From assembly GCF_001294455.1 (NCBI RefSeq), contig NZ_LIKT01000004.1, positions 62,001-126,000 of the forward strand: a stretch of DNA of 64,000 bases. Reading direction: 5' to 3'. Within the stretch, counting starts at the first letter, position 1; every line of letters starts with the position of its first letter. Below the pieces are notes generated by a model. The model was not told the DNA's origin. It made no database searches and saw only the letters and a program-made list of their open reading frames with translations. Positions 9,725-10,540 of the stretch are shown here, one piece after another. Made by a program: the position numbers and the translations under genes. Origin of the DNA: Phaeobacter sp. 11ANDIMAR09. Its GTDB lineage: Bacteria > Pseudomonadota > Alphaproteobacteria > Rhodobacterales > Rhodobacteraceae.

Positions 9725-10540
9725 ATGAGTGCAAAAATCAGACTGTATGTAGATCACCCCTTGGGTGCAGGGCAATCCATTCCTCTGGAGAAGGAGCAGG
9801 CGCATTACCTCTTTGGGGTGATGCGGCAGCGTCTGGGCGGTGCGGTAGCGCTGTTCAACGGGCGCGACGGCGAATGGCAGGCCGAAGTGACCGAGGCAGG
9901 CAAGCGCGGCGGCACCCTGACCTGTGTCACGCAAAGCAAGCCCTTGCAGATGCCGCCGGATTTGTGGCTGATCTTTGCGCCGATCAAAAAGGCCCGCACG
10001 GATTTCATCGTGGAGAAAGCCGCCGAGATGGGCGCCGCCCGCATTCTGCCCGTCGGCACCGAGTACACCAATTCCGAACGCATCCGGCAGGACCGGCTGC
10101 AGGCCCATGCCGTCGAGGCGGCTGAGCAATGCGGTGGCACCTATGTGCCCGAGGTCTGTGATTTGCAAAAACTCTCGCAGCTCTTGGATCACTGGCCCGC
10201 CGAGCGCCAGTTGATGTTTTGCGACGAAGCAGAAGTGGGCCAGCGGTTATTTCTGGACATCGCACAGGGAAGCGCCGGTCCCGAGGGAGGGCGTGAAACG
10301 CCCGCCCTGGGGGGCGGGACCGGCGCTGATCGGTCCGCAGGCGAACCGGTCGGCAAGCTATCATTGCAGCCTTGGGCAATCCTCATCGGCCCTGAAGGCG
10401 GTTTTTCCGACAAGGAGCGCAAACGCCTGCACGCCATGGCGCAGGCCCATGTGGTCAGCCTGGGCCCGCGTATTCTGCGTGCCGATACGGCGGCTGTGGC
10501 GGCCATGACCCTTTGGCAGCAAACACTCGGGGATTGGTAA
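9725..10540 (+). CDS. rsmE: 16S rRNA (uracil1498-N3)-methyltransferase with in-frame palindromic insert
   Basis: A SPOUT-class methyltransferase for m3U1498 of 16S rRNA, dimeric and cytosolic. The SAM-binding knot is clear: ILIGPEGGFSDKER and LGPRILRADTAAVA. At 271 aa it is longer than the usual ~240-250. The excess sits at residues ~182-215, a Gly/Pro/Glu/Ala-rich stretch between FLDIAQ and WAILIGPEGG, and 57 bp of it (10271-10327) is a nested near-perfect palindrome that keeps the frame. The insert falls before the knot and should form a surface loop, so the enzyme may still work. The TAATG at its end couples it to the next gene. Confidence 0.93.
   Translation: MSAKIRLYVDHPLGAGQSIPLEKEQAHYLFGVMRQRLGGAVALFNGRDGEWQAEVTEAGKRGGTLTCVTQSKPLQMPPDLWLIFAPIKKARTDFIVEKAAEMGAARILPVGTEYTNSERIRQDRLQAHAVEAAEQCGGTYVPEVCDLQKLSQLLDHWPAERQLMFCDEAEVGQRLFLDIAQGSAGPEGGRETPALGGGTGADRSAGEPVGKLSLQPWAILIGPEGGFSDKERKRLHAMAQAHVVSLGPRILRADTAAVAAMTLWQQTLGDW
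10271..10327 (+). repeat. 57-bp nested palindrome inside rsmE
   Basis: Outer arms AGCGCCGGTCCCG (10271-10283) and CGGGACCGGCGCT (10315-10327) are perfect. Inner arms AGGGAGGGCGT (10284-10294) and ACGCCCGCCCT (10298-10308) have one mismatch around a GAA loop. A six-G bulge lies at 10309-10314. The length is 19 codons, so the frame is kept. It resembles a coding-compatible palindromic repeat. Confidence 0.8.

Follow-up and report, generated by a model that had tools for sequence, protein, structure and literature searches.

Rickettsia palindromic elements (RPEs), as passages of PMC10969869 describe them, are repeated palindromes that lie both between genes and in frame within unrelated protein genes, where they are tolerated as extra peptide; according to the same passages, close to half of the RPEs first reported were inside genes. 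Sections of PMC3733652 describe GTAG- and CGTC-tagged repeats, some of which are located inside genes, together with RAYTs, and parts of PMC10969869 give the MITE names CIR, ERIC, and BOX. Rickettsia, whose members live obligately inside cells, is the best-known case of protein genes capturing palindromic repeats in frame. Here we describe a different repeat with this behaviour in marine bacteria that are free-living; one named species (xdhC, Leisingera caerulea) has strains with and strains without the insert, a culturable system in which the arrival, cost, and decay of an in-frame insert can be tested.

The feature analysed here is very probably one member of a family of structured palindromic repeats dispersed in Rhodobacteraceae (84-88 bp; a nested hairpin, then a second hairpin), inserted in frame in rsmE. 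Copies are present in many genera, show compensatory changes, and are mostly intergenic; the repeat stands in frame in rsmE of two sister species and is absent or partly deleted in others.

The palindrome in rsmE

The window, i.e. the whole 64-kb stretch of DNA that was analysed, contains the following features:

9725..10540, + strand: rsmE, 16S rRNA (uracil1498-N3)-methyltransferase, 271 aa, with the insert as residues 181-210 (ORF; NCBIfam NF008696)
10266..10353, + strand: entire palindromic element, covariance model R1 positions 1-84 of 84 (72 bits, E 9.1e-12 in the window)
10271..10283, + strand: hairpin 1, 5' arm of the outer stem, 13 nt (inverted-repeat search, fold)
10284..10308, + strand: hairpin 1, inner hairpin with arms 10284-10294 and 10298-10308, one mismatch, and a GAA loop (fold)
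10309..10314, + strand: asymmetric G run between the inner and the outer stem, found in most rows of the 30-copy alignment A1 (alignment, fold)
10315..10327, + strand: hairpin 1, 3' arm of the outer stem, 13 nt (inverted-repeat search, fold)
10328..10351, + strand: hairpin 2, its position kept, its stem variable and co-varying in other copies (alignment, covariation, fold)

The initial annotation had pointed to a nested palindrome at 10271..10327, and the palindrome is present there. Its two 13-base arms (10271-10283 and 10315-10327) are perfect, as described, and are separated by 31 nt. The second, 11-base inverted repeat is likewise present, but one of its positions is mismatched, leaving 10 of 11 pairs. 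The 19 codons attributed to the palindrome do keep the frame; the unit, however, is 84-88 bp long when the second hairpin is included, and the net gain amounts to 30 codons relative to 241-aa relatives. In the folding check that had been proposed, the 88-nt stretch proved more stable as RNA than its shuffles (MFE -58.5 kcal/mol, shuffled mean -43.4, z -4.4), and folding with DNA parameters gave a z of -5.4. The 64-kb window holds no further perfect inverted repeat with arms of at least 13 and a spacer of 3-40; when the window was resampled 20 times with a first-order Markov model, 19 resamples had no such repeat and the remaining resample had one. Model R1 recognises the rsmE copy as its sole match in the window, besides the copy's own weak reverse match. 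R1 was built from 30 sequences that include this copy, which is also recovered by BLAST with a copy from another genus (E 1.6e-16, 88% over 64 bases).

The host gene is identified as rsmE by NF008696 (346.9 bits vs a cut-off of 234), and its frame is open through the palindrome. An RsmE query found one single match in its own genome (G000) and had matches in 75 of 80 relatives. Among the 11 other genomes of the same genus, one of which (G004, 86% complete) lacked a match at E<=0.001, the protein has 271 residues in Roseobacter sp. MED193 (G003), as in the own genome, 257 in Roseobacter sp. SK209-2-6 (G006), 248 in G002, and 241 in the seven others. The MED193 protein is 95% identical to the own RsmE. 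RsmE had been described as some 25-30 residues longer than usual, which agrees with 271 residues vs 241 in the seven same-genus relatives, and the suggested alignment of relatives revealed that the insert is absent in 7 of 10 same-genus proteins.

An AlphaFold model of RsmE, computed from 28 sequences, has a mean pLDDT of 85.6, and residues 182-208 are the sole stretch of at least three residues with a pLDDT below 50. In the solved relative 4j3c, 11 residues separate two matched blocks that are separated by 41 residues in the own RsmE. Taken together, the low pLDDT and the difference in length place the insert in a permissive loop before the strand leading to GPEGG. The translated stretch is thus predicted to be a disordered loop ahead of the catalytic knot; the model agrees with the initial annotation, which had located the insert just before the SAM-binding knot. 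Most likely, the insert does nothing useful to RsmE. Between the own gene and that of G003, the 30 insert codons differ by 3 synonymous and 4 non-synonymous bases and the remainder of rsmE by 38 synonymous and 13 non-synonymous bases, small numbers that would fit a weaker protein constraint on the insert than on the rest of RsmE.

Loop length varies among RsmE proteins and G+C-rich sequence easily forms hairpins, so one might see in the insert nothing but an ordinary length-variable RsmE loop that is palindromic by chance or through local duplication. Copies outside rsmE contradict this explanation, among them the 64-bp copy in another genus with 88% identity, and such a palindrome was lacking in 19 of 20 resampled windows; we consider an ordinary loop extremely improbable.

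In a DNA alignment of rsmE, the full element is found in the own genome and in MED193, its 3' half is retained in SK209-2-6, and G002 carries the altered flank alone, with GQRRFLD replacing GNALQL and seven codons gained. A tree of 2712 gap-free columns of the flanking region joins the own genome and G003 as sisters (support 1.0) and places G006 and G002 apart from this pair. Species with a full, half, or no insert do not form one clade on this tree; hence, loss or allele exchange must be added to a simple insertion. Exchange would imply that the insert-bearing rsmE allele was acquired by interspecies recombination and that the insertion happened once, in some other lineage. The patchy pattern, with the full insert in G000 and G003, half of it in the distant G006, and the altered flank only in G002, is what exchange would produce, and the same patchiness is seen within Leisingera caerulea xdhC, where altered bases adjoin the insert. 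For G000 and G003, however, which are sisters, vertical descent suffices. On balance we give such an exchange somewhat less than an even chance. It does not compete with the reading of the insert as one copy of a dispersed repeat.

Range, structure, and context of the repeat

Exact searches of the own genome with the 57-mer and with a 91-bp stretch returned the rsmE copy only (also as its own reverse complement) and otherwise weak fragments at E>=0.1. The 57-mer search proposed in the initial annotation thus yielded no second exact copy; the relatives of the element were recognised by consensus and structure. The family first came to light because the RsmE query also matched four secondary sites in other genera (in G021, G023, G026, and G046) that are close copies of the palindrome outside rsmE. 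As a BLAST query, the G021 copy had matches at E<=1e-4 in 211 of 394 same-family genomes, with at most two candidates scored per genome; the host family was taken as Rhodobacteraceae on the basis of named matches.

Model R1 yields 16 matches in the own genome at E<=0.001, one of them the rsmE copy, and 22 at E<=0.01. At the stricter threshold there are 26 matches in G006, 24 in Pseudophaeobacter sp. EL27 (G005), 62 in G264, and 131 in G317; all of the 30 genomes searched, most of them picked for kinship or earlier matches, contain at least one (range 1-131). A class-wide draw with stricter filters, in which the share of the family is unstated, gave no match in 186 of 190 genomes, the remaining four being the own genome, two same-family genomes, and G454 of another family. 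G454 belongs to another alphaproteobacterial family and holds one intergenic copy (L278) outside the family of the window, perhaps a transferred one. A pattern scan of genome contigs detected 82 stretches. The titles of the 80 listed as loci mention Rhodobacteraceae, Paracoccaceae, Rhodobacterales, or member genera and, in three cases, an alphaproteobacterial bin. The genera in these titles we take to be members of Rhodobacteraceae, Paracoccaceae, or Rhodobacterales.

Sixty plasmid records contain a match, 33 from Phaeobacter and 24 from Leisingera among them, and no annotated feature lies under the match in the 40 best records; the present analysis defines a repeat family in Phaeobacter, Leisingera, and their relatives. 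None of 50,697 phage records matched. Comparison of seven loci with Rfam gave no credible match, with a single sub-threshold one to RNase MRP (15.7 bits vs 50). A search by title and abstract, in which subscription journals are thinly covered, found no published description of the repeat. By term search, Rhodobacter, Ruegeria, Roseobacter, Paracoccus, and Dinoroseobacter are absent from the main text of PMC3733652, and Rhodobacter, Silicibacter, Roseobacter, and Paracoccus from that of PMC2267715.

Alignment A1 comprises 30 copies. The named structure combines an outer stem of 16 bp with a 10-bp hairpin inside it and with a second hairpin whose sequence varies. Under this structure, 95.5% of the A1 cells pair, and both sides have changed in 31 cells, compared with 7.4 in shuffles (0 of 500 shuffles were as high). 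Structures slid by 1-3 columns reach only 40-48% pairing. An alternative structure, with the middle GCCC segment paired to its downstream side instead, is equally good (95.3%, 31 cells), indicating that this segment is complementary to its neighbours on either side. By eye, all three segments change together within single copies at L040, L114, and L274. In the pairs of the structure, G-T wobbles outnumber A-C by 55 to 7 in A1 and by 158 to 48 in alignment A2. Much of this excess sits in a few columns that are already wobble in the consensus and therefore represents few independent events, so that the asymmetry gives weak support to folding of the + strand as RNA or single-stranded DNA. The number of open frames per copy, out of six, is 5.30 in A1 (5.10 when shuffled) and 4.34 in A2 (4.25 when shuffled). 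Copies thus have few stops because of their composition, and the translatability of the element looks incidental, not selected.

The genomic context of the copies was scored with a home-made codon-usage gene caller. Within the same genus, 69 copies were considered (71 model matches minus two duplicate loci): 65 are between genes, two partly and two wholly in a predicted gene. The caller wrongly treated the rsmE copy of the own genome as intergenic; of the two copies called wholly in a gene, one is a weak call at the edge of a locus. A set of 48 copies from G264, G290, G274, G317, and G454 divides into 47 intergenic copies and one that is partly in a gene. As raw counts without a gap-type baseline, the same-genus gaps are 44 co-directional, 15 convergent, and 6 divergent, the misplaced rsmE copy being among the 6; convergent gaps, counted in the same raw way, hold 14 of the 20 copies read in G264 (of 62 matches) and 8 of the 13 read in G290 (of 58 matches). 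Of these 69 copies, 46 have flanking sequence in common with a copy at another locus; they fall into 16 groups, most of which span genomes, suggesting that many copies are old rather than actively moving. In four genomes (L059, L068, L069, and L073), a copy is located just upstream of one same gene, once in the opposite orientation; judged from a motif, this gene is presumably a citramalate/2-isopropylmalate synthase.

A structure under covariation, the distribution of gap types with its many convergent cases in G264 and G290, and an excess of G-T over A-C as expected for a folding + strand would all be compatible with intergenic copies that serve the host as RNA or DNA signals (terminator-like elements, hairpins at mRNA 3' ends, or attenuators), the rsmE copy being a rare misplaced duplicate. 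Co-directional copies, however, have no preferred orientation (24 vs 20), the 30 genomes differ from 1 to 131 in their number of matches, unlike what a housekeeping signal would show, and the wobble excess derives largely from the few consensus-wobble columns. A host signal is a less likely explanation, and we favour a dispersed repeat.

In-frame copies in xdhC and an ABC-transporter ATPase gene

In xdhC on Leisingera plasmids, the element is antisense and in frame, and the protein has 335 vs 297 residues. Of 232 records with an xdhC match, 17 span 80% or more of the query and make up the set considered here. The gene measures 1008 or 1002 bp in eight records (three L. caerulea and five L. aquaemixtae) and 894 bp in nine (two L. 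caerulea and seven other Leisingera), so a single named species, L. caerulea, has the insert in three records and lacks it in two. Ten xdhC records were read and aligned, each of them annotated XdhC. The insert is 114 bp long, one copy has an additional 6-bp in-frame loss, and the alleles differ in the bases beside the insert.

The third gene encodes an ABC-transporter ATPase in G026, the element supplying about residues 8-35 at the N-terminus of the protein. Apart from the ATG, the first 50 codons of this gene offer a single start codon, a TTG at codon 4. Relatives of the ATPase were matched at E<=1e-60 in 3 of 25 other genomes; all three are without the element and begin directly at the domain. 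By eye, the xdhC and ATPase copies, both antisense, have a common reading frame, and the rsmE copy uses the sense strand.

A lenient in-gene rule flagged 21 of 50 distinct copies, two of which are the rsmE copies, and missed the ATPase copy of G026. Most of the other flags were set aside, the copies being judged by eye to precede a start codon closely or to occupy an antisense frame. Among the 80 named loci, L228 alone has a same-frame coding signal on both sides. It was rejected as an in-gene copy: the frame through the element has no Pfam match, and the opposite-strand flanking frames match at most weakly. L070 and L099, the two flagged copies with coding signal on both sides, were rejected as well; frames through their elements lack a Pfam match, and opposite-strand frames on either side have Pfam matches. 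At L263, on a plasmid of Leisingera aquaemixtae M597, a copy has lost 25 bases between two AGCGCCC repeats, decay by short-repeat deletion.

Origin of the insert and comparison with known repeats

The insert in rsmE probably arose by insertion of about 90 bp with the frame kept. At ~77% G+C, the element would carry few stop codons in any frame, and because it landed in a loop that precedes the SAM-binding knot, presumably being translated there as a disordered linker, it would have been tolerated. In-frame deletions would then account for its decay, as in the half copy of SK209-2-6. We take the element itself to be a non-autonomous repeat that spread by DNA copying or through an enzyme acting in trans. 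No clean insertion or target-site duplication could be read at rsmE or xdhC, where alleles with and without the element also differ in the bases around it. No mobilising enzyme was identified, and the REP-type transposase PF01797 has no match in the own genome. The initial annotation's proposal of a mobile palindromic element in a coding loop holds insofar as copies are dispersed and stand in frame in two other unrelated genes; movement itself we infer. As contrary outcomes it had named a loop and palindrome present in all orthologues, or the lack of both another copy and length variation; the insert is missing from most same-genus orthologues, and other copies and length variation were both found.

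Larger arrangements surround some copies. In G264 (L298-L317 and L338-L357), imperfect inverted repeats of 19 bp stand on both sides of several copies; seven pairs of them, with spans of 148-179 bp, suggest a MITE-like larger unit around the core. With up to 3 mismatches, G264 has 20 matches to these ends, 14 of which make up the seven pairs, and no pair has the length of a transposase gene. In G317 (L103 and L287-L297; 131 model matches), many copies follow one another at ~240 bp near contig ends, and these tandem arrays probably break the assembly. In G290 (L318-L330), the core lies between two further palindromes, a repeated three-palindrome composite that has a similar counterpart in G317 by eye.

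A bolder interpretation would be a family-wide mobile structure, undescribed as far as was searched, that forms two overlapping hairpins as alternatives on its + strand, is copied as a single-stranded fold of RNA or DNA, and repeatedly donates in-frame disordered segments to marine bacterial proteins. We regard this as rather improbable and retain the reading of a dispersed palindromic repeat with an in-frame copy in rsmE.

Among described systems, MITEs resemble this roseobacter repeat in being palindromic and without a gene of their own, and G264 has 19-bp outer repeats around several copies of the core, itself palindromic. Outer repeats were seen in G264 only, among the genomes whose flanks were read, and no target duplication or parent transposase was identified. 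REP sequences and REPtrons, as far as sections of PMC3733652 portray them, share with it the form of short palindromes, an uneven copy number, and the presence of some copies inside genes; a REP unit, according to a published abstract, has 20-40 bp vs 84-88 bp for the roseobacter repeat. The GTAG tag is near the 5' end in 1 of 69 copies and near the 3' end in none, and CTAC is near neither end in any. PF01797, the Y1-type tyrosine transposase, has matches in 3 of 20 genomes, that of G006 being partial, and none in the own genome or G003. Membership in the REP/RAYT group was rejected on the basis of tag and transposase.

Like RPEs in the passages cited above, the roseobacter repeat is also found in frame in unrelated genes (rsmE, xdhC, and the ABC ATPase). 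RPEs differ in their host, which belongs to another family, in their length of ~150 bp vs 84-88 bp, and in the share of genic copies, which is nearly half in RPEs but small here (65 of 69 and 47 of 48 copies intergenic by the caller). In the roseobacter repeat, moreover, two hairpins share a strand segment. The CGTC end tag that sections of PMC3733652 report for RPEs is no feature of its ends: CGTC is near the 3' end in 2 of 69 copies and near the 5' end in 0 of 69, and its reverse complement GACG in 5 (5' end) and 1 (3' end). The likeness to Rickettsia palindromic elements drawn in the initial annotation thus stands as an analogy, and membership is unsupported; compared by description, the roseobacter repeat resembles RPEs in behaviour and is not shown to be one. 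We file it as a palindromic intergenic repeat that sometimes enters genes in frame, neither RPE nor REP.
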